A DNA stretch of 34,048 nt from a virus. Positions within the stretch are counted from its first letter, which is position 1. Each line of letters starts with the position of its first letter. Below the pieces are notes generated by a model, which was given only the letters and a program-made list of their open reading frames with translations, had not been told where the DNA came from and ran no database searches. The position numbers and the translations under genes are program-made. Shown one piece after another: positions 3,981 to 23,504 of the stretch. The stretch spans positions 1 to 34,048 of IMG/VR virus record IMGVR_UViG_3300025154_000279; one strand, given 5' to 3'.

Positions 3981-4301
3981 TTACCTCTTAATAAATAAAT
4001 CAGCATTGTACCTGCTGCAACTGTAACATTCATCTGTATAAACATTTTTGTCAAAATCGTAGTGCTTGCATCCAGCACATTTCGCTAAATCTTTGTTGGG
4101 CGTCAGTGATTTTTCATTTGGTAAGAATTTTACATACTCCGCATCAAAATATGTATACTCCCCATCTTCAAACTCTACCAAGGCGCATGGATTTAACCCT
4201 TCGTCTATCATCCCTGATTGGTAGAACCCATGAAAAACACACTTCTTCCCACTATGTATTCCTCTGATAATTTCAACTCTTCTCGTTTCCTGTATATTCA
4301 T
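3981..4301 (-). CDS. Hypothetical protein with SH3/KOW-like N-domain and C-terminal Cys4 zinc site
   Basis: AAAAGGAGA fits ATG at 4301 (spacing about 8) better than the in-frame ATGs at 4307 and 4325. Residues about 8-60 look like a small beta-barrel (VEIIRGIHSGKKCVFHGFY... ALVEFEDGEYTYFDAEYVKFL). Residues about 74-96 contain CAGCKHY...DECYSCSRY, a probable CxxC...CxxC zinc site. The 5' region starts at an attC-like core (GTTAGGC on the coding strand at 4335), about 34 bases before the ATG, as in the neighbouring cassettes. No attC-like site follows the gene, so it may be the last, truncated cassette or the original flanking gene. Confidence 0.65.
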   Translation of the reverse strand: MNIQETRRVEIIRGIHSGKKCVFHGFYQSGMIDEGLNPCALVEFEDGEYTYFDAEYVKFLPNEKSLTPNKDLAKCAGCKHYDFDKNVYTDECYSCSRYNADLFIKR

Positions 4302-4328
4302 TTTCATTCTCCTTTTAAAAATCATTAC

Positions 4329-4381
4329 GCCTAACGTGATGCCATTAGGCGCAGTTCTTGCGCTTAGTGGCTGTTGTAAGC
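4329..4381 (-). other. attC-like recombination site 1
   Basis: On the + strand GCCTAAC (4329-4335), spacer GTGAT, arm GCCATTAGGCGC (4341-4352), loop, arm GCGCTTAGTGGC (4360-4371), T, then GTTGTAAGC (4373-4381). The arms pair over 12 positions with two G-T wobbles. The core facing the 4396-4716 cassette is perfectly inverse to the core at 4756-4764. The ATG-rich start of the next leftward gene lies just beyond GTTAGGC. Confidence 0.65.
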
Positions 4382-4395
4382 TGTAGATTTAACAA

Positions 4396-4716
4396 TTAAA
4401 TTTTATGTTCACCTTCAACCTGTCTTTTATCTCTATCAGATGTGCGCTTGTTAAGCCAGAGCAACGCCTCTTCGAGCTTTGTTATTGCAATCGCATTTTC
4501 TCGGCATTTGAATTTTGAATTTTGATAAAATTCAATCCTTTGTCTGGCAGCATCAATTACAGTTTCAACAAAAGCACCATTAGGTTCTTTTCGTTCGCTT
4601 CCCCTGCCGAGTGGGCCGTCTTGCCACTCAATTTTTAAACCCGTGCCAATAACAAAGCCACCAGTGGGATTCTCGTTTTCATCTGATGTGTTTTCTGATT
4701 TGTATTCTGCTAACAT
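4396..4716 (-). CDS. Probable Acb2/Tad1-family cyclic-nucleotide sponge (anti-CBASS/anti-Thoeris)
   Basis: The protein has a short beta-rich N-half (FVIGTGLKIEWQDGPLGRG, residues 21-39; EPNGAFV, 44-50) and a C-terminal helical hairpin (residues about 50-98) ending RQVEGEHKI. The pattern ENA..I..LEEAL..L..RT..R..R.VEG.H is what I associate with Tad1/Acb2 proteins. N74, R91 and R95 keep the N-x16-R-x3-R spacing that I recall for ligand contacts of Tad1. Family members bind and hide cyclic signals of Thoeris (gcADPR) or CBASS (cyclic di/trinucleotides). AAAAGGAGAAAT precedes the ATG. The gene lies inside one attC-bounded cassette. The assignment is from memory; which ligand is bound cannot be predicted. 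Confidence 0.72.
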   Translation of the reverse strand: MLAEYKSENTSDENENPTGGFVIGTGLKIEWQDGPLGRGSERKEPNGAFVETVIDAARQRIEFYQNSKFKCRENAIAITKLEEALLWLNKRTSDRDKRQVEGEHKI

Positions 4717-4755
4717 ATTTCTCCTTTTTTAATTGTTTGTTAGTTTAAATTTATT

Positions 4756-4813
4756 GCTTACAACGTTATGCCGCTTTGCGAAGTTTTAATTTTGTAAAGC
4801 GGCTGTTGGATGA
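4756..4813 (-). other. attC-like recombination site 2
   Basis: On the + strand GCTTACAAC (4756-4764), spacer GTTAT, arm GCCGCTTT (4770-4777), loop of 18, arm AAAGCGGC (4796-4803), T, GTTGGATGA (4805-4813). The arms pair perfectly over 8 bp. GCTTACAAC is the exact inverse of the core at 4373-4381 across the Acb2/Tad1-like cassette, whereas GTTGGATGA is the inverse of the core in site 3 across the next cassette. Confidence 0.7.
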
Positions 4814-4830
4814 TGTAAAAAGTGACATTA

Positions 4831-5109
4831 TCAATATAAATCCTCTGAATATAAAGTGCTGCCACGAGTTTGGGATAGGTCTTTTATTTGCCCACATTCT
4901 TTTGCTATGATAAAAGCCTGTTCCCTATCAACAAACTCTCCATCTCCAGTAACAAAGCCTTGTATTTTTTCGAGTTTTGCTATTTGTTGTCTATTCAGAT
5001 TAAAACTTAACTGACTATTTAAAGAATTAAAACATTGGTCATGCCTATGGCCATAAAATACTTGGTCGGTTTCCATTATTTTAATTGCAGCACAGATAAT
5101 TCGTTTCAT
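4831..5109 (-). CDS. Hypothetical protein of the 'SEDLY' phage/prophage type, 92 aa
   Basis: The frame is open to 5208, but those first 33 codons lie across the attC-like site 3. TGAGAGAAC before the ATG at 5109 gives the natural start. Visible motifs are AAIKI at the N-terminus, YGHRHDQCF, QGFVTGDGEFVDREQAF, IAKECGQI and a final LYSEDLY. I associate this pattern (RH..CF, GF.T....FVDR.EA, A..AGQ, SEDLY/W) with a widespread small family in phages and prophages of unknown function. It is the only gene of a cassette of about 335 bp, and the attC-like site 2 begins about 20 bases after its stop. Confidence 0.75.
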   Translation of the reverse strand: MKRIICAAIKIMETDQVFYGHRHDQCFNSLNSQLSFNLNRQQIAKLEKIQGFVTGDGEFVDREQAFIIAKECGQIKDLSQTRGSTLYSEDLY

Positions 5110-5133
5110 ATTCGTTCTCTCACTTTTTATTTC

Positions 5134-5192
5134 ATCCAACGTTATGCGAAACGTACGAAGCGCATCAGCATTTTGTACTTTCGCTGTTGGAC
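5134..5192 (-). other. attC-like recombination site 3
   Basis: On the + strand ATCCAAC (5134-5140), spacer GTTAT, arm GCGAAACGTAC (5146-5156), loop, arm GTACTTTCGC (5175-5184), T, GTTGGAC (5186-5192). The arms pair as 6 bp, one unpaired C, then 4 bp. A single extrahelical base in the stem is a feature of genuine attC sites. Both ends match RYYYAAC/GTTRRRY exactly. Confidence 0.72.
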
Positions 5193-5530
5193 ATAGTATT
5201 GTATTCATAATAAAAAACTATCGGATTGCTTAAAATTTTTATCTGATTGAACCGCAAAGCTCTATCAAACTGGGCATTATTTTTTAGCATAGCAACCTGC
5301 CTATTTAGCTCATATCGCCACATATCTATACTCATGCCACCCTTATGGATATTACATTTTCGGCATGAAGGCATTAAGTTTTCAATCCTATCGTTATCTA
5401 AAACGCATTTTTTGGTTGCTAGATGTTTTGGGTATATGTGATCAACCTGCATCTGTTTAAATGATATATCACATCCGCAATATGAGCATTTGCCATTAGT
5501 TTTTTCATACACTTTTTTTCTATCAATCAT
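5165..5530 (-). CDS. HNH endonuclease, 121 aa (cassette gene)
   Basis: A classical HNH/zinc site is present: C15xxC18, VDHIYP with D30-H31, N51 in ENLMPSC, C56xxC59 and H62. Such proteins make double-strand cuts or nicks; free-standing HNH genes in phages may be packaging-associated, homing or defence-related. The start at 5530 is 28 bases after the cassette boundary and has only a weak ribosome site. The last codons run into attC-like site 3, as is common for cassette genes. The C-terminal 50 residues are unlike any domain I know. Confidence 0.85.
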   Translation of the reverse strand: MIDRKKVYEKTNGKCSYCGCDISFKQMQVDHIYPKHLATKKCVLDNDRIENLMPSCRKCNIHKGGMSIDMWRYELNRQVAMLKNNAQFDRALRFNQIKILSNPIVFYYEYNTMSNSESTKC

Positions 5531-5551
5531 AAATTACCAATACAATATTTT

Positions 5552-5632
5552 GTCTAACGTTATGCCAGTAGGCGAAGAAAACCATACCGAGGACTTGCTC
5601 GATATGGTGGTTTCGCTTAGTGGCTGTTAGTG
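5552..5632 (-). other. attC-like recombination site 4 (long hairpin)
   Basis: On the + strand GTCTAAC (5552-5558), spacer GTTAT, arm GCCAGTAGGCGAA, an inner stem ACCATA (5581-5586)/TATGGT with CGAG/CTCG above it, arm TTCGCTTAGTGGC, T, GTTAGTG (5626-5632). It is the largest of the four sites (about 81 bp). The GTTAGTGGA start is exactly inverse to the core at 5879-5887 across the 5617-5853 cassette. Confidence 0.7.
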
Positions 5633-5853
5633 GATGTAAGTTTTTCTATTAATAATTTCAATTCGTTGCGTTCGGCTATAAACTTAACCAGTTCGTAACG
5701 AACAGCATTGTCCGACAATGTATTGACATATCTTAAAATATCACAATGCTCTTTTAATTCCATATACCCGTCATAGTATTCTGCATCTAGTGTGGCCTTG
5801 AATTGGTAGTTTCTCGGAACTTCTAATTTTGTGAAATTATCAAATTCTGGCAT
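5617..5853 (-). CDS. Hypothetical protein, 78 aa (cassette gene)
   Basis: AAGGAGATAATTAA precedes the ATG, 34 bases after the cassette boundary. The product is soluble and helical, with Glu/Tyr-rich stretches (DAEYYDGYMELKEHCD) and a C-terminal helix (FIAERNELKLLIEKL). No family is recognised. The last seven codons and the stop lie inside attC-like site 4. It is the most promoter-proximal gene of the array. Confidence 0.65.
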   Translation of the reverse strand: MPEFDNFTKLEVPRNYQFKATLDAEYYDGYMELKEHCDILRYVNTLSDNAVRYELVKFIAERNELKLLIEKLTSTNSH

Positions 5854-5878
5854 TTAATTATCTCCTTAAAAACTTATT

Positions 5879-5925
5879 TCCACTAACTTCTATTGTGCGA
5901 ACTTTTATTGCGCCTAATCACTCAA
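5879..5925 (-). other. Degenerate attC-like or attI-like boundary of the array
   Basis: TCCACTAAC (5879-5887) is a good core and the exact inverse of GTTAGTGGA at 5626-5634. Beyond it a short imperfect palindrome follows (GTGCG ... GCGC, about 5894-5911), but the expected GTT core on the far side is missing (CCTAATCAC instead). It could be a decayed attC or the proximal site at which the array entered the phage operon. Confidence 0.45.
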
Positions 5926-6160
5926 AACTCATTATACAATAACCTTCTTCAATTCCATATTGGCCACCATGTAAGATATATGTCACCATCCTATCACACA
6001 TCTTTCCGGTAAATCTTTGATTAATAGGATCCCATTCTTTCAACCTCAAAACATCCCCAATATGATAGTCTCTGTCGTTTTTTCTAATCTCAAAAGTTTT
6101 CCTTTCTGAAATTAGATCTCGGAAAAATTCAGGTAATATTTTTAGTTCGTGTCTAACCAT
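5918..6160 (-). CDS. DUF3850 (ASCH/PUA-like) protein, 80 aa
   Basis: HELKILPEFFRDLISERKTFEIRKNDR, then YHIGDVLRLKEWD, FTGK and a final EGYCIM strand match DUF3850, a small beta-barrel family of the ASCH/PUA fold thought to bind RNA or modified nucleotides. GAGGTGAAGTA precedes the ATG. A paralogue lies at 7070-7339 with the same order of motifs (roughly half of the residues alike by eye). The stop lies next to the degenerate boundary of the cassette array. The role in the phage is unknown. Confidence 0.8.
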   Translation of the reverse strand: MVRHELKILPEFFRDLISERKTFEIRKNDRDYHIGDVLRLKEWDPINQRFTGKMCDRMVTYILHGGQYGIEEGYCIMSFE

Positions 6161-6173
6161 TACTTCACCTCTG

Positions 6174-6382
6174 TCATTTTTTTTTATCTACTATTATAAT
6201 GATTGATTCTAAAAACATTCTTTGACCAGCGGGCTCTTTGTGATGATTTAATCCAGCAATATACAACATGTCATTATATACTCTATACCACTCGACTCTA
6301 ATAAAATCCTTTTTATACTGATAACTCCCTCTTATTTTGGTTTTGCCAATAATTATTTTTTTGCCAACTCTTCCTCAGTCAT
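6174..6382 (-). CDS. Probable -1 frameshifted hypothetical gene
   Basis: ATG at 6382 overlaps the previous stop (ATGA). The zero frame ends after nine codons (…GAG TTG GCA AAA AAA TAA). A -1 slip on the A7 run (6356-6362), a legal A_AAA_AAA slippery heptamer, continues in an open frame to TGA at 6174. The downstream part reads IIIGKTKIRGSYQYKKD, then VEWYRVYNDMLYIAGLNHH, and looks coding. The product would be about 68 aa. Programmed frameshifting, a recent mutation and a homopolymer sequencing error all fit the data. Confidence 0.45.
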
Positions 6383-6555
6383 ACTTCCTCGTTTGTTTCA
6401 AGTGGACATTTTTTTGGAAACTTGCGCATTGTTGTTTTTTGTCCACATCTCCGTTGATGTGTATCTGGGCAATCACAACCCCAGAAAAAAGGATTGTGGC
6501 GGAACACTCTGTATGGGCACAAATCTGGCCTGTTGACTACGATTAATTTTTGCAT
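6379..6555 (-). CDS. Small Cys-rich protein, 58 aa (zinc-binding candidate)
   Basis: ATG at 6555 is preceded by AAAGGATAGGA. The product has five Cys and two His (C13, C27, C29, C37, C50), including WGCDCPDTHQRRCGQK, so it is probably a small zinc-binding protein. Its TGA overlaps the ATG of the frameshifted gene downstream. No family is recognised. Confidence 0.6.
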   Translation of the reverse strand: MQKLIVVNRPDLCPYRVFRHNPFFWGCDCPDTHQRRCGQKTTMRKFPKKCPLETNEEV

Positions 6556-6559
6556 ATTC

Positions 6560-6928
6560 CTATCCTTTAATTATTGATTCTTTTTTATGATATGTTTTTT
6601 CAAAAAACATTCCTCTCTCTATGCCTCGCACATTTACATCGCCGTTTAAATATTGTATTGCTAAAAACTGACCGCGCACTAAACATTTTTGATCATATAG
6701 CGCCATGTCATATTGTTTTTGGGTTATTTCAACCCTAGTGCTACCATTATAATTAGTGATATAATATTTATTACCATAACAAGGATGTTCTTTAGGCGGA
6801 TAAAACGAATCGCATTTAATAATTTTATCATGATATGAGTGTTTAATACAACGAATCAAATACAAGCAAGGGAGACACTCATCACTGATCCTATTTTTAT
6901 TAATTTTAATTAATTGATGCTCATTCAC
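6560..6928 (-). CDS. Hypothetical Cys-containing protein, 122 aa
   Basis: AAAGGATAATATTGTGA precedes the ATG. The N-terminal half contains CLPCLYLIRC, CDSF and HPCYGN, a spacing that could bind a metal. The C-terminal half is beta-rich (STRVEITQKQYDMALYDQKCLVRGQFLAIQY, shown here only as a description of the strand-rich segment at residues about 63-93). No family is recognised. It lies 4 bp after a tiny membrane-protein gene and is codirectional with it. Confidence 0.6.
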   Translation of the reverse strand: MNEHQLIKINKNRISDECLPCLYLIRCIKHSYHDKIIKCDSFYPPKEHPCYGNKYYITNYNGSTRVEITQKQYDMALYDQKCLVRGQFLAIQYLNGDVNVRGIERGMFFEKTYHKKESIIKG

Positions 6929-6932
6929 AATA

Positions 6933-7073
6933 TTATCCTTTAATTATCCAAAAACAAGTTATGTAGCCGAACAGATACACTGCCGGAACCAAAGGCTTGG
7001 GTAGTTTATGCTCTGCCAGATATATCATTACCGCATACGTTATCAGGGCGGCGGATACGGATAAATCACTCAT
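6933..7073 (-). CDS. Tiny membrane protein, 46 aa
   Basis: ATG at 7073 overlaps the upstream TGA (ATGA at 7070-7073), the usual coupling in this operon. There are two hydrophobic segments, residues about 7-20 (SAALITYAVMIYLA) and 29-45 (VPAVYLFGYITCFWII), separated by a short HKLPKP turn, so it is a small two-helix membrane protein. No family is recognised. A superinfection or lysis-related role is possible but unsupported. Confidence 0.6.
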   Translation of the reverse strand: MSDLSVSAALITYAVMIYLAEHKLPKPLVPAVYLFGYITCFWIIKG

Positions 7074-7339
7074 ACTCTAGTCTCACTTTCACAAGGCGAT
7101 TCAATTCCTAAAACACAGAATCCATCTTCCAGCGCATTGCATTTATCATCAAACAAAATATATACTATAATGCGAGTACATTCTCTTCCGGTGTATTCAA
7201 GCAAGTATGGATCAAATTCTTTTAGGATAATAGTATCTCCGGTTTTAAATCCGCGATCATTATTTCTTATTTCAAAGTTCTTAATTCTCTTTAGAACGTC
7301 ATCAAAAAACTCGGGCCATATTTTTAATTCATGCGTCAT
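7070..7339 (-). CDS. DUF3850 (ASCH/PUA-like) protein, 89 aa (paralogue)
   Basis: THELKIWPEFFDDVLKRIKNFEIRNNDRGF, KTGDTIILKEFDP, YTGRECTRIIVYIL and DGFCVLGIE follow the DUF3850 pattern in order. It is a clear paralogue of 5918-6160. The ATG overlaps the upstream stop, and GGAGATGAG serves as ribosome site. The protein ends with an extra nine charged residues. Family knowledge suggests a nucleic-acid or nucleotide-binding barrel; the function in phages is not established. Confidence 0.8.
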   Translation of the reverse strand: MTHELKIWPEFFDDVLKRIKNFEIRNNDRGFKTGDTIILKEFDPYLLEYTGRECTRIIVYILFDDKCNALEDGFCVLGIESPCESETRV

Positions 7340-7698
7340 CTCATCTCCTCATATTGATAAATGTATTTACAGCAGCACTTGAACAATTCCGCAACCGCCT
7401 TTGTATCTTCTACATCCTGAAATTCAATTTCTATCGCATCGCATACGATATTAAGCTCCAGGAAGGCGTCAAAGAAGCTGGATGGTAGATTACCGCTATC
7501 CATTGCAAGGTTCGATAATCCTTCGCCATCGCCAAGCTCATAGATGTCACGGCCTGACATTACATTAACAGCATCCTGGCATTTGTAATATAGCTTCTGA
7601 GCTAACTTGTCCGGATCGCTCTGCACCAGCTCGCAGGATAGATACGCGATTGCGTTACTTAATTCTATCGCTGCCGATTTATAATAATTTTGTTCCAT
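7336..7698 (-). CDS. Hypothetical protein, 120 aa
   Basis: GGGAGG (7703-7708) fits ATG at 7698 best. ATGs at 7701 and 7710 are also in frame and would add 1 or 4 residues. The stop of the upstream VRR-NUC gene overlaps this start. The product is helical and acidic, with a Cys-rich C-terminus (LFKCCCKYIYQY). No family is recognised. Confidence 0.6.
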   Translation of the reverse strand: MEQNYYKSAAIELSNAIAYLSCELVQSDPDKLAQKLYYKCQDAVNVMSGRDIYELGDGEGLSNLAMDSGNLPSSFFDAFLELNIVCDAIEIEFQDVEDTKAVAELFKCCCKYIYQYEEMR

Positions 7699-8069
7699 CA
7701 TGCCTCCCATTTAATTTTAAAACAATGTTTGCATATAGCTTCAACTGCCTCATCCGATCCTTTACAGATAACTACCGTATAACCGTATGTTTGTAATTTG
7801 TGAATCCAATCTTTCTGTTCGTCAGAAATAATGCTTTTTTTCCTTCTCTTCATTTCAAGAAAAAGGCCGTGCGACGTGTCGGTAGGAACAGGAATAAAGA
7901 GATCGGGAATACCGCTCCGCAGACCCTCGGCTTTAAATTTGCGAGCCTGATTCATACTTTTTGAACTGCCATTAGGGATTGCGAAAATAGGAACGTGATT
8001 CCAATCGCAATATTTTATTACCGCGCACTGCTCCTGATGTTCAGTGGGAATTATTTTCTTAATCGCCAT
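7698..8069 (-). CDS. VRR-NUC domain nuclease, 123 aa
   Basis: The PD-(D/E)XK-type VRR-NUC core is complete: E10/Q12 in the first helix (TEHQEQCAVIKY), G53-IPD56-LFIP, E72-x-K74 (LEMKR), then Q85xxW88 and a closing GYTVVICKGSDEAVEAI helix. These minimal phage VRR-NUC proteins act on branched or flapped DNA and are thought to substitute for Holliday-junction resolvases (RusA/RuvC). It lies in the DNA-metabolism part of the early arm. Its first 19 bases overlap the end of a small upstream gene. Confidence 0.9.
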   Translation of the reverse strand: MAIKKIIPTEHQEQCAVIKYCDWNHVPIFAIPNGSSKSMNQARKFKAEGLRSGIPDLFIPVPTDTSHGLFLEMKRRKKSIISDEQKDWIHKLQTYGYTVVICKGSDEAVEAICKHCFKIKWEA

Positions 8070-8227
8070 CCGTTCCTCTCAATACGAACACGTTTAAGTT
8101 TTCTACACCTTTCACAAACCAATAGTCCTATTATTTTTCCATCAGCACCTAATTCGTTATCCGTAACAACTCTTTCTATTAAATGCCAATTTATGAAGCA
8201 GGTTATTTTATAAAATAGTTTACTCAT
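8051..8227 (-). CDS. Small basic protein with CxxC, 58 aa
   Basis: ATG at 8227 overlaps the upstream TGA (8224-8227) and is preceded by GGGGATAGA. The product contains INWH and LLVCERCRKLKR; the CxxC plus an upstream Cys/His could be a zinc knuckle. The C-terminus is very basic. The gene overlaps the VRR-NUC start by 19 bases in another frame. No family is recognised. Confidence 0.6.
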   Translation of the reverse strand: MSKLFYKITCFINWHLIERVVTDNELGADGKIIGLLVCERCRKLKRVRIERNGWRLRK

Positions 8228-8502
8228 TCTATCCCCTTCAATTCTTTATATTTATTTTCTCCAAAGTTCTTTCTAAAGTGAGCCGGATAATTATGTAACA
8301 AGCTATGGCATACACGGCATAAAGTAACTGTATTAGCATCGTCACACCGTGAGCCGCCAAGACCTTTGCCGCCAATGTGGTGAGCGTCATTCTCCCATTG
8401 CCCATTATCCATGTTCCACCTGCCGCAACCACAAACAGAGCAGGGCTCTGAACGCAAACCGGCTAACCGCTTTTCATCCGTTTTTATAGATTTTTCTTTC
8501 AT
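8224..8502 (-). CDS. HNH-type endonuclease-like protein, 92 aa
   Basis: C21xxC24, H41-H42 in NDAHHIGG, N57, then C62xxC65-H66 (LCRVCHSLLH) form an HNH/treble-clef nuclease core like the small phage recombination-type HNH proteins (DUF968/NinG-like). AAAGGA stands 11 bases before the ATG. It lies between RtcB and VRR-NUC in the DNA/RNA repair group. Substrate unknown; packaging, recombination and homing roles are all possible. Confidence 0.8.
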   Translation of the reverse strand: MKEKSIKTDEKRLAGLRSEPCSVCGCGRWNMDNGQWENDAHHIGGKGLGGSRCDDANTVTLCRVCHSLLHNYPAHFRKNFGENKYKELKGIE

Positions 8503-8511
8503 TGTTCTGAT

Positions 8512-9666
8512 TTATCCTTTTATTACTGCAAGCGGAGTTAATTCTTCAACAATTTCTACAAGATCTCTTTGATTATACATTACTTCATAAATATCCTTAT
8601 AGGCTCCAGCAGCTTCATCAAGATCTGCTACGCTTCTAATGCCATGAATAATTCCCTGGTCGTCAAGAATTTTCTTTTCAGTTTCTAAATCAAGTTCTCT
8701 GGACGCTTGATTTCTACCCATTTTTCTTCCGGCCCCATGGGAACATGACATAAAAGAATCAGGATTTCCCAAGCCTCTTACTATGTAGCTTTTTGTTCCC
8801 TGACTACCTGGAATGATACCTATTTCACCCTGCCTGGCAGAAGTAGCTCCCTTCCGGTGAACAATAACATTCTGTCCAAAGTGATTTTCCCAAGCTGCAT
8901 AGTTATGGTGAATATTGATTGTATCACTAAACTTTATCTCACCCAGTTGGTCTATAAAAACCCATTTAATCATTTCTATCATGTGGTATCTATTTGCTTT
9001 GGCAAACATGAGAGCATAATTCATGGCTTCCATATATTCTTTTGCTTGTAAAGTATCAATAGGTAGAAAGGCTAGTTCTTTATCGGGTAACTGAGAAAAC
9101 CATTTTTCACATAAGTCCAGTGCTTTTTTATGATATGCAGAGGCTATCTTTAGACCGAAATTTCTTGACCCCGAATGAATCATAATCCATACATAACCAT
9201 CCTTATCTTTTTGAATTTCAATAAAGTGATTGCCTCCACCAAGAGTACCTAATTGTTTTTTTGCAGAATTAAGTTGTTCATCAATTACTTTAATATGGTC
9301 TGGCGCATCTTCAAAACCTTCCCATTTTTGATCTTCTTTGTGGTGATTAAATCCAACTGGAACATGAGTCCTTATGATACCCATTATTGTTTTCATGGTT
9401 TCTTTGTCAATATTCTTAATATCTGTTTTTACAGCACACATTCCACAGCCAATGTCTACACCTACAGCATTTGGCACAACCACACCTTTAGTAGATAAAA
9501 CACCCCCAATAGGCATACCATAGCCTTGATGTGAGTCTGGCATTACTGCAAAATGCTTAAAAACAAACGGAAGATTGGCTACATTCTTAGCCTGCGCTAA
9601 GGCTCCATCTTCAATATCATTCAACCACATTTTTATTGGTACTTTCTCGGTAGTAATAATTTTCAT
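8512..9666 (-). CDS. rtcB: RtcB-family RNA ligase
   Basis: All catalytic motifs are present: VDIGCGM with D71 and C74, GGGNHF with H147, IHSGSRN with H164, NIHHN with H253/H254, and SCSHGAGR with H310, the expected guanylated His. At 384 aa it is slightly shorter than E. coli RtcB (408 aa). RtcB joins 2',3'-cyclic phosphate (or 3'-phosphate) and 5'-OH RNA ends using GTP and Mn2+. In a phage it would most plausibly repair tRNAs or other RNAs cut by host toxins or anticodon nucleases (inference). No archease or RtcA gene is nearby. GGGAG precedes the ATG, which overlaps the stop of the preceding gene. Confidence 0.95.
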   Translation of the reverse strand: MKIITTEKVPIKMWLNDIEDGALAQAKNVANLPFVFKHFAVMPDSHQGYGMPIGGVLSTKGVVVPNAVGVDIGCGMCAVKTDIKNIDKETMKTIMGIIRTHVPVGFNHHKEDQKWEGFEDAPDHIKVIDEQLNSAKKQLGTLGGGNHFIEIQKDKDGYVWIMIHSGSRNFGLKIASAYHKKALDLCEKWFSQLPDKELAFLPIDTLQAKEYMEAMNYALMFAKANRYHMIEMIKWVFIDQLGEIKFSDTINIHHNYAAWENHFGQNVIVHRKGATSARQGEIGIIPGSQGTKSYIVRGLGNPDSFMSCSHGAGRKMGRNQASRELDLETEKKILDDQGIIHGIRSVADLDEAAGAYKDIYEVMYNQRDLVEIVEELTPLAVIKG

Positions 9667-12483: not shown

Positions 12484-12716
12484 ACGTCAGCCCTCCAATA
12501 TTCGGCAAAGCGATCCTGCATTTGAGCCTCATACTCGCGCACCACGTCATCGCGGGCATCATCGAGAGAGTCAAAAGGTCCGTGCTCGTAGGTAATCCCG
12601 TTTTTTCCGTAAAAAAAACCGTCGTGCTTTTGCTCTATTTTATAGTATAGATCCCCGTCGGCTATGTCGTCAGGGTCGGGGCCCCAGTTCATTTCCGCAT
12701 CGTGTGGGTGTGGCAT
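12480..12716 (-). CDS. Hypothetical acidic protein, 78 aa
   Basis: The product is acidic and aromatic: NWGPDPDDIADGDLYYKIE, then GITYEHGPFDSLDDARDDV and a C-terminal helix. The HGPF.S..DA..D segment is a pattern I have seen in small phage proteins of unknown function. It starts with one-base overlap to the previous stop (TAATG) and ends with ATGA overlap to the next. Confidence 0.65.
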   Translation of the reverse strand: MPHPHDAEMNWGPDPDDIADGDLYYKIEQKHDGFFYGKNGITYEHGPFDSLDDARDDVVREYEAQMQDRFAEYWRADV

Positions 12717-13309
12717 TATAATACATCCAATAATTCTAATCCATATTTTATAATTCTTGTTTTCATCGCCGCACTGGCCGCACTGTCTGCCGCACTGGCC
12801 GCACTGTCTGCCGCACTGTATGCCGCACTGGCCGCACTGGCCGCACTGGCCGCACTGGCCGCACTGGCCGCACTGGCCGCACTGTCTGCCGCACTGGCCG
12901 CACTGTCTGCCGCACTGTATGCCGCACTGTATGCCGCACTGTATGCCGCACTGTCCGCACTGTATGCCGCACTGTATGCCGCACTGGCCGCACTGGCCGC
13001 ACTGTCCGCACTGTATGATGGATTATTCAGATAATTTTCCGCCGCCTCTATTGCTAATCGAGGTCTTTTATCGTCAGGATAAATAATTTCAAAATTTTGC
13101 AAAACTGCCCTAGCTGCAAAAATGGAATACCTAATGCAATTTTCTTTCGACAAAAATCTAGTTACAAGCCAATTTGCCCACTCAATTTTATCATCGGCTA
13201 TTAGATTTTCTACTGTTTCGCCCACCGTTTCGCATCCATTTTTTAGATACCACTCGTAACCATCGCTACAAGCGTTTTTTTCCTTAAGCATTTCTTTGGT
13301 TAAGTTCAT
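12716..13309 (-). CDS. Immunity-protein-like (Imm5-like) protein with Ser/Ala minisatellite C-terminus
   Basis: Residues 1-96 contain ACSDGYEWYLKNG, then IFAARAVLQNFEIIYPDDKRPRLAIEAAENYL, matching the N-terminal pattern of 'putative immunity protein' (Imm5-like) entries that are often followed by Ala-rich repeats. Residues about 99-183 are a run of SAA, SAAY and SAAD units encoded by an almost perfect 9/12-bp minisatellite, and a short unique C-terminus (KTRIIKYGLELLDVL) follows. The repeat keeps the frame because all units are multiples of three. Function unknown; repeat-number change would alter helix length (inference). Confidence 0.7.
   Translation of the reverse strand: MNLTKEMLKEKNACSDGYEWYLKNGCETVGETVENLIADDKIEWANWLVTRFLSKENCIRYSIFAARAVLQNFEIIYPDDKRPRLAIEAAENYLNNPSYSADSAASAASAAYSAAYSADSAAYSAAYSAAYSAADSAASAADSAASAASAASAASAASAASAAYSAADSAASAADSAASAAMKTRIIKYGLELLDVL
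12768..13017. repeat. Coding minisatellite of about 24 units of 9 or 12 bp
   Basis: The + strand reads repeated GCCGCACTG, TCTGCCGCACTG and TATGCCGCACTG, with TCCGCACTG variants. All units are multiples of three, so the reading frame survives unit gain or loss. The repeat keeps several frames open on both strands, which creates spurious long ORFs rich in Pro-His or Val-Arg. The base composition is much richer in G and C than the surrounding sequence. Confidence 0.95.
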
Positions 13310-22307: not shown

Positions 22308-23504
22308 ATGGAAAATACCGACCAAATCACACCGTTGCAGCAGACTCAAAATCTGTTGCAACGTCTTATTGACAAAAAGTTTTCAGGCGCGTCGTTTTCG
22401 AGCGACCAACTGGAGAAATATGTCGATAGTTTGATCGACCCAGAAACAATATCCCCAGAACGGTGGGATAAGATAGCTGAATTTATGCCATGGCAGTCAA
22501 AAGTAAAAATGATGGGGTTAACCTATCAACCATACTTCGATATGCCACTTACTGAAACGCCAAATATGAAAACGGACCTTTCCTGCCGCGACGACGTCAC
22601 AATAAAAACGTGGTTTGCGCAGTGGAAGAGACAGTTTGAACACAATGCGTTGAAGTATGATATAATGAACAACCTGGCGTCTAATGAGATTGGCAAGCAA
22701 GCACTCAAGCCTGTAATTATTGCAGGCTCAGGGCCATCGCTCGCTAAAAACATTGACGCTTTGCGCGACCATCGTGGCGACATTTGCCTGGTATCGTGTT
22801 TGCATAACTTCGCCTACTTCGAAGACAACGGAGTGAGCGCCGATTATTATGTGAACCTTGACGCCGGAGAGTGTACTGTTGATGAGATGTGTATTGGTGG
22901 CAAGCAAGATAAAGAATATTACTTCGAGCTATCGAAGGATAGGGTTTTAGTTACCCCTCTTGTTGGCCATCCCGGGTTACATGAAAATTGGAAAGGCAAG
23001 GTGTTGTGGTATAATACCGCAGCAGACGAGTCTTTTCACACAGAAACAAAAAAGATACTTAACGTACCTTTATTTTTTCGCATGGGCGGCAACGTCCTTG
23101 GTTCATGCTTCTATTTTGCCAAATGCATACTGGGAGGCAATCCAATAATTTTCATTGGTGCTGACTTCTCATTTGGTTATAATAAAAGGTTTCATTCATA
23201 CGTCACTGACTACGACAGGTCACAAGGCGACATGGCAGCTGTTGATGTTTTTGGAAACAAAGTGTACACGTGGCCATCTTACTATGGTTTCAAGCGATTC
23301 TTTGAATACGAAATCATGGGAGGACGAACGGGCATTGGTGGTATTTACATAAATTGCACAGAAGGCGGACTCTTAGGCGCGTACCCACAAGGAAATATGA
23401 GGCAAATCATTCAACGTGATTTAGCCTCTGTTTTATACGAATACAATCTTTATAAATTATTGCCTGGTTCGTTGAATCCAGACAAACCACAAACAGTATT
23501 ATGA
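22308..23504 (+). CDS. DUF115 / MptE-like enzyme (MAF-type glycosyltransferase-like), 398 aa
   Basis: PVIIAGSGPSLAKNIDALRDH (residues about 143-163) and VSCLHNFAYFEDNGVSADYYVNLDAGE match the DUF115/MptE-like pattern (GSGPSL, D.......P.Y.V). FIGADFSF and FHSYVTDY follow, as in the nucleotide-sugar-binding half. DUF115 proteins include MAF flagellin glycosyltransferases and archaeal 6-hydroxymethylpterin diphosphokinases. In a phage head operon a glycosylation of virion proteins is the most likely role, but this is inference. The ATG is 1 base after the previous stop, without its own ribosome site. The N-terminal 130 residues are unassigned. Confidence 0.8.
   Translation: MENTDQITPLQQTQNLLQRLIDKKFSGASFSSDQLEKYVDSLIDPETISPERWDKIAEFMPWQSKVKMMGLTYQPYFDMPLTETPNMKTDLSCRDDVTIKTWFAQWKRQFEHNALKYDIMNNLASNEIGKQALKPVIIAGSGPSLAKNIDALRDHRGDICLVSCLHNFAYFEDNGVSADYYVNLDAGECTVDEMCIGGKQDKEYYFELSKDRVLVTPLVGHPGLHENWKGKVLWYNTAADESFHTETKKILNVPLFFRMGGNVLGSCFYFAKCILGGNPIIFIGADFSFGYNKRFHSYVTDYDRSQGDMAAVDVFGNKVYTWPSYYGFKRFFEYEIMGGRTGIGGIYINCTEGGLLGAYPQGNMRQIIQRDLASVLYEYNLYKLLPGSLNPDKPQTVL

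Follow-up and report, generated by a model that had tools for sequence, protein, structure and literature searches.

Cassette arrays that carry attC sites in the absence of an integrase, termed CALINs, have been published for the phages TJE1, P12002L and PH101 (Qi et al. 2023, PMC9892861). Five of six phage attC sites tested in that work recombined with attI1 through IntI1; the P12002L sites were among those assayed with IntI1, and one of them recombined (PMC9892861). A DNA methyltransferase was noted among the cargo and was proposed to counter host defence (PMC9892861). Phage CALINs have hitherto been few, and the recombination of their cassettes is known from the laboratory. Phages also disarm the signalling arm of host immunity: the Tad1 protein of SBSphiJ7 is a validated anti-Thoeris factor and Tad1 also binds CBASS nucleotides (review PMC12043709), while RyR-domain proteins of phages are reported to break down or bind away the signals of Thoeris (2026 preprint, PMC13232231).

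We analysed a virus record of 34,048 bases, here called the window, which encodes a terminase, a P22/SU10-like portal and a major head protein on its right arm and represents a podovirus-like phage that encodes no integrase. A run of genes at about 2.2-14 kb points leftward, and inside this run we find four head-to-tail units on the minus strand (5887-4336). Each starts with G|TT; the R'' box at its 3' end is the reverse complement of the unit's own first nine bases, and the hairpin of attC type that comes after this box abuts the G|TT of the following unit. The core pairs, read on the minus strand, are GTTAGTGGA at 5887 with TCCACTAAC at 5634-5626 (unit 1, 9/9), GTTAGACAA at 5558 with ATGTCCAAC at 5194-5186 (unit 2, 7/9), GTTGGATGA at 5140 with TCATCCAAC at 4813-4805 (unit 3, 9/9) and GTTGTAAGC at 4764 with GCTTACAAC at 4381-4373 (unit 4, 9/9). 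All four had been picked out, at these same positions, by an earlier sequence-only reading, which assigned the sites to no strand. A G|TT start joined to an R'' box complementary to that start defines a gene cassette, and all four units have both; four attC sites within 1.3 kb of a phage genome, together with the lack of an integrase, make the array a CALIN under the usual definition of two or more nearby attC sites. A complete integron would also include an intI gene, and the record has none. As is usual for cassettes, attC sites and genes share one strand, and each unit can be described as an apparently promoterless short gene followed by its 3' attC.

The strength of this arrangement was gauged with a full grammar test, which scores a chain by own-end complementarity, by the hairpin, and by the presence of the next GTT exactly at the start of the next unit. 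The minus-strand chain of four in the window scores 34.1, as against a best value of 17.5 in 200 dinucleotide-preserving shuffles of the window and of 20.2 in 144 other viral loci (1.14 Mb). Phage P12002L, our positive control, was recovered with a score of 26.8. The published CALIN of TJE1 failed the test (13.2), so the full grammar is not a general attC detector. The grammar is also strand-symmetric; the orientation that we assign to the array rests on spacer asymmetry and on folding. A separate pattern, AACAGCN{25,54}GCATAACGTTR, has two matches in the window where 0.01 are expected. Two earlier tests, an attC scorer and a looser search for chains in which the hairpin played no part, were dropped, single sites not being significant and shuffles yielding chains of three to four; the full grammar test and a covariance model took their place.

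Cassette 1 (5559..5887, minus strand) starts G|TTAGTGGA at 5887 and ends in its own attC at 5558, with a 9/9 own-end match. Its ORF (5617-5853, 78 aa) has no Pfam or PADLOC match and only a marginal match to a PHROG of unknown function (E 0.029). The attC of this cassette (5550..5634, minus strand) runs from R'' TCCACTAAC to R' GTTAGACAA and folds at -18.5 kcal/mol on the plus strand (z -5.5) and at -13.5 on the gene strand. Cassette 2 (5141..5558, minus strand; own-end match 7/9) encodes an HNH endonuclease in ORF 5165-5530 (Pfam HNH, 7.1e-8; phrog_2118, 6.8e-32), and its attC (5132..5194, minus strand) folds at -13.5 kcal/mol on the plus strand and -10.3 on the gene strand. Cassette 3 (4765..5140, minus strand; own-end match 9/9) holds an ORF that ends at 4831 and likely starts with the ATG at 5109, which would give 92 aa. 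Its protein resembles phrog_839 (1.6e-19), a family with no assigned function, and has a 30% identical relative in another array-bearing phage, L003; a structure prediction for it was set aside (pLDDT 48.7). The attC of cassette 3 (4756..4813, minus strand) folds at -12.1 kcal/mol on the plus strand and -7.8 on the gene strand. Single-protein scans with cassettes 1 and 3 as probes returned no relatives.

Another key observation concerns the cargo of cassette 4 (4336..4764, minus strand; own-end match 9/9), whose ORF (4396-4716) encodes 106 aa. The protein scores 27.2 bits against the Pfam family Acb2_Tad1_hairpin, just over the cut-off of 27, and phmmer aligns its C-terminal helical region with solved Tad1 sequences (1.1e-13). 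All 20 PDB matches with E<=0.001 in a fold search are Tad1, and relatives of the protein are annotated as Tad1 in the Bacillus phages SPG24 and SBSphiJ7. By sequence and fold, cassette 4 thus encodes a Tad1-like anti-Thoeris/anti-CBASS sponge, which would be expected to bind the second messengers of both systems and so to serve as an anti-defence protein. It is like the Tad1 of SBSphiJ7 and the CmTad1 and CbTad1 structures in its helical C-terminus and its fold; it differs from the solved chains, which span 123-138 aa, in being shorter and in being housed in a cassette. Most of its 66 relatives in viral contigs are ordinary phage genes that lack an attC. The attC of cassette 4, the last in the array (4327..4381, minus strand), folds at -10.9 kcal/mol on the plus strand and -8.6 on the gene strand, and it overlaps a terminator-like match at 4326-4353.

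That match is a palindrome on the minus strand which overlaps both the last attC and the GTTAGGCG that follows, and which may end transcription of the array. The chain of units stops at 4335, and the ORF directly beyond the last attC (3981..4325, minus strand) has neither an attC of its own nor a family match in Pfam and PHROG searches; it is either a resident phage gene at the array end or a cassette that has lost its former site. At the other end, the flank ahead of cassette 1 (5888..5960, minus strand, reading ...GCACAATAGAA|GTTAGTGGA) is the probable original insertion point of the array; no attI was recognised there by eye, attI sequences being diverse. Two paralogous genes with DUF3850/ASCH domains lie near the array (5918-6160 and 7070-7339), and an RtcB RNA ligase gene (8512-9666; PF01139, 1.6e-114) lies within the leftward run. 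A repetitive ORF rich in Ala, Ser and Tyr (12716-13309) has an Imm5-like match (PF21805, 2.2e-6), and its repeat opens long antisense ORFs as well; among the virion genes, 22308-23504 encodes a protein with an MptE-like domain (PF01973, 8.9e-20). An Rfam search of the window gave no family. A portal probe found no close relative of the phage in viral contigs, only a weak match to a Vibrio phage, and megablast with the first 25 kb of the window gave no phage match.

With DNA energy parameters, the plus strand, opposite to the genes, is more stable than the gene strand at all four window sites (z -3.2 to -5.5), and none of 200 shuffles folds as well as that strand; across the phage sites that we compared, the bottom strand folds better at 17 of 24. 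We then built a covariance model, R1, from 16 sites in four unrelated phage lineages (L001/L002, L003, L016 and L043), with the window left out. All ten pairs of its inner stem are changed on both sides, and the covariation score falls by half or more when the partners are shifted by one to three columns. The sequence-only reading had named a covariance model as the appropriate check, and R1, scanned over the window with filters off, ranks three of the four attC sites first: 4758-4811 in the site of cassette 3 (33.1 bits, E 1.3e-5), 5134-5192 in that of cassette 2 (33.0 bits, E 1.4e-5) and 4329-4379 in that of cassette 4 (17.2 bits, E 0.058), these E-values being rough owing to a short calibration. 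The two sites at 33 bits equal the training sites in score. R1 misses the attC at 5550-5634; the training sites had been trimmed centrally, and the longer loop of this site is the probable reason.

When run at E<=1 on some 1.3 Mb of further loci from phages and bacteria, R1 returned its training sites, copies of these and a few weak extras, namely one of 19.1 bits in the L003 phage and a pair in L120 (19.4 and 18.4 bits) that flank a methyltransferase gene. It found none of the class 1, P12002L and TJE1 sites, and we therefore take R1 to describe one attC subtype. A further mark of this subtype is a CTTC/CTGC box 17-22 nt before R', present at all four window sites and at 5.3% of all GTT in the window. 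Pattern scans of viral contigs with the window-type attC gave chance matches inside genes, and single attC sites used as blast queries gave nothing useful from either plasmids or phages.

Relatives of the cassette 4 protein recur in or beside arrays of this subtype. In L001 and L002 the full grammar test shows the relative to be a complete cassette; in L003 it belongs to an array, its own site there being degenerate; in L016 it stands just past an array of six chained units; and in L043 it is near two sites. These contigs are themselves phage, with a head protease and tape measure gene in L001 and portal genes in L003 and L016. Beyond this relative, the window phage has no protein in common with L001, L002 or L016, and with L003 it shares only the cassette-3-like protein mentioned above. 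At 3265-4100 of L003, consecutive cassettes encode an RyR-domain protein (PF02026, 2.2e-11) and a Lar-like restriction alleviation protein (below the Pfam cut-off; phrog_599, 2.1e-7), followed by two unknown genes and then Tad1. In L016 (4014-4482), ORF 4079-4414 matches Tad4, an inhibitor of type I Thoeris (PF25186, 3.9e-9), and begins at a cassette boundary; the 3' R'' box of this unit matches its start at 8/9 and its hairpin is weak. The same attC subtype is thus present in unrelated phages, where it carries genes for Tad1, RyR-domain, Lar-like and DNA methyltransferase proteins, with Tad4 at a cassette boundary. Bearing in mind that the related arrays were chosen for carrying Tad1 or a methyltransferase, an enrichment of counter-defence genes in arrays of this subtype is only suggested.

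Evidence for the movement of a single cassette was derived from L001 and L002, two near-identical phages that come from different metagenome records. When positions 5415-6196 are removed from L002, the sequence equals that of L001 exactly over positions 5001-9530 (4.5 kb). The 782 bp in question make up a whole unit, which includes an attC of its own and is joined at G|TT on either side; no more than about 7 bp (AACGTTG) around G|TT are common to the two junctions. The unit encodes a DNA methyltransferase (phrog_757, 3.5e-67), and it is a 64% identical methyltransferase that the same attC subtype flanks in another phage, L120. This is a natural gain or loss of one cassette, in either direction, in two phages other than the window phage. 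Phages with further relatives of the L002 methyltransferase have two-unit chains with different attC sequences (L129, 900-2700; L132/L133, 3341-4634); the L129 sites resemble those of P12002L.

We conclude that the locus is very probably a phage-borne CALIN, an array of counter-defence cassettes that an integrase of the host would move in trans and whose sites are predicted to be active. The computed support consists of the cassette grammar, the attC architecture, the shared subtype, the homology and fold of Tad1, and the one single-cassette difference seen elsewhere. The sequence-only reading had described an integron-like array lacking an integrase in a phage genome, and this description is supported. 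None of the three outcomes that it had named as refuting was observed: R1 matches the sites, two near-identical phages of the same attC subtype (L001 and L002) differ by one whole unit, and the palindromes are not consistently terminator-like. In searches for a recombinase, TIGR02249 had no match in the whole record and was positive in 14 of 14 control genomes, and no tyrosine recombinase was found at a stricter limit in the related phage contigs. From the lack of a tyrosine recombinase match in the record and in these contigs we infer that the integrase is supplied in trans by an integron of the host. We hypothesize that the phage infects a host with a chromosomal integron that expresses IntI; that the plus (bottom) strand of each attC would fold into an IntI substrate during infection; and that cassettes would leave or enter at G|TT, with exchange either among the sites of the phage or between its array and that of the host. 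Small, swappable genes, here a Tad1-like sponge, would thereby come to the phage and would presumably be expressed from its leftward promoter. As to a bacterial integron with this attC subtype, R1 returned nothing from 299 Pseudomonadota, 80 genomes of the G005 phylum and 119 of the G002 phylum, in a scan that scored few candidates per genome and had no positive control, and the window-type attC pattern gave two isolated matches that look like chance in 398 Pseudomonadota.

Several other explanations deserve consideration. The array could be a relic that a single event of illegitimate recombination brought in from a bacterial integron and that is now immobile, its hairpins functionless; the phage does lack an integrase, the last attC (GGCATCACGTT, 17.2 bits) is atypical, and the ends of unit 2 match at only 7/9. 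We nevertheless consider this unlikely, given that 9/9 ends persist in three of four units and the hairpin at all four sites, that window sites at 33 bits reach scores as high as those of the training set, and that phages with the same subtype have recently gained or lost a cassette exactly. That same cassette difference bears on the proposal that units pass between phages by homologous or phage-encoded recombination, which we hold to be quite improbable: the window phage does encode recombination genes (an AAA_24/Sak4-like protein and an exonuclease) and no phage examined has an IntI, but the L002 junctions offer only some 7 bp of shared sequence, and homologous recombination needs no conserved attC architecture with covarying pairs.

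The sequence-only reading had itself named conserved RNA terminators among the findings that would undo it, and the palindromes could indeed be transcription terminators or RNA processing sites in a leftward operon, the core repeats having arisen by chance or under other constraints. Terminator-like matches overlap two of the sites (5581-5608 and 4326-4353), three being found where 1.7 are expected, and attC sites themselves are thought to hold weak terminators (PMC9892861). On the other hand, two of the four sites have no such match, the better fold is on the plus strand and not on the transcribed-sense strand, the sites are not consistently terminator-like, and the palindromes differ in sequence while keeping their architecture and covarying pairs. 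Terminators would also leave unaccounted for the own-end complementarity that changes from unit to unit and the 782-bp cassette difference, and we regard this explanation as highly improbable. The chance that bacterial integron DNA was joined to phage DNA in metagenome assembly seems so slight as to be nearly negligible: the record has no named isolate and the array is more AT-rich than the remaining phage DNA (35.5% GC against 41-44%), but phage genes flank it on both sides in a single operon direction, its cargo is of phage type, and similar arrays lie on other phage contigs, one of which (L003) carries a 43-bp end repeat.

The reading of the locus as a phage-borne CALIN leads us to a broader proposition, to which we give somewhat less than an even chance: that genes against host defence (Tad1, Tad4, RyR-domain hydrolases or sponges, Lar-like anti-restriction proteins and DNA methyltransferases) form a pool which circulates among otherwise unrelated phages in cassettes that share one attC subtype and that integrases of the hosts move. 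If this were true, phages would assemble anti-immunity arrays with the gene-capture machinery of their hosts, in a mirror image of the chromosomal integrons that stock defence genes. Confirmation would establish that phages exchange counter-defence genes by a site-specific route, and it would open the way to attC-guided discovery of such genes, for which cassettes 1 and 3 of the window and several cassettes in L003 and L016 are candidates.

When set beside the cassettes of class 1 and class 2 mobile integrons (plasmid arrays L086-L093), the window array has the same head-to-tail succession of gene and attC, the same G|TTRRRY starts, R''/R' boxes and hairpins. It differs from them in having no intI or recognised attI and in carrying phage-type genes instead of resistance genes, and its inner stem and spacers (1 and 5 nt, with the CTTC box 17-22 nt before R') depart from those of the class 1/2 sites compared. 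With the phage CALINs of Qi et al., it has in common that attC cassettes reside in a phage genome devoid of an integrase. The sequence-only reading had presented such an array as an unusual vehicle in itself; the array is real, but phage CALINs had already been published (PMC9892861), so that the array alone is not new. The more interesting part, which that reading missed, is the Tad1-like cargo together with the shared attC subtype. No report pairing Tad1 with an integron was found in the literature searched, and as far as that search extends, three features set the present arrays apart from those of Qi et al.: a Tad1-like sponge carried as a phage cassette, an attC subtype common to unrelated phages, to which the window sites belong, unlike those of TJE1 and P12002L, which R1 does not match, and a single-cassette difference that arose in nature.
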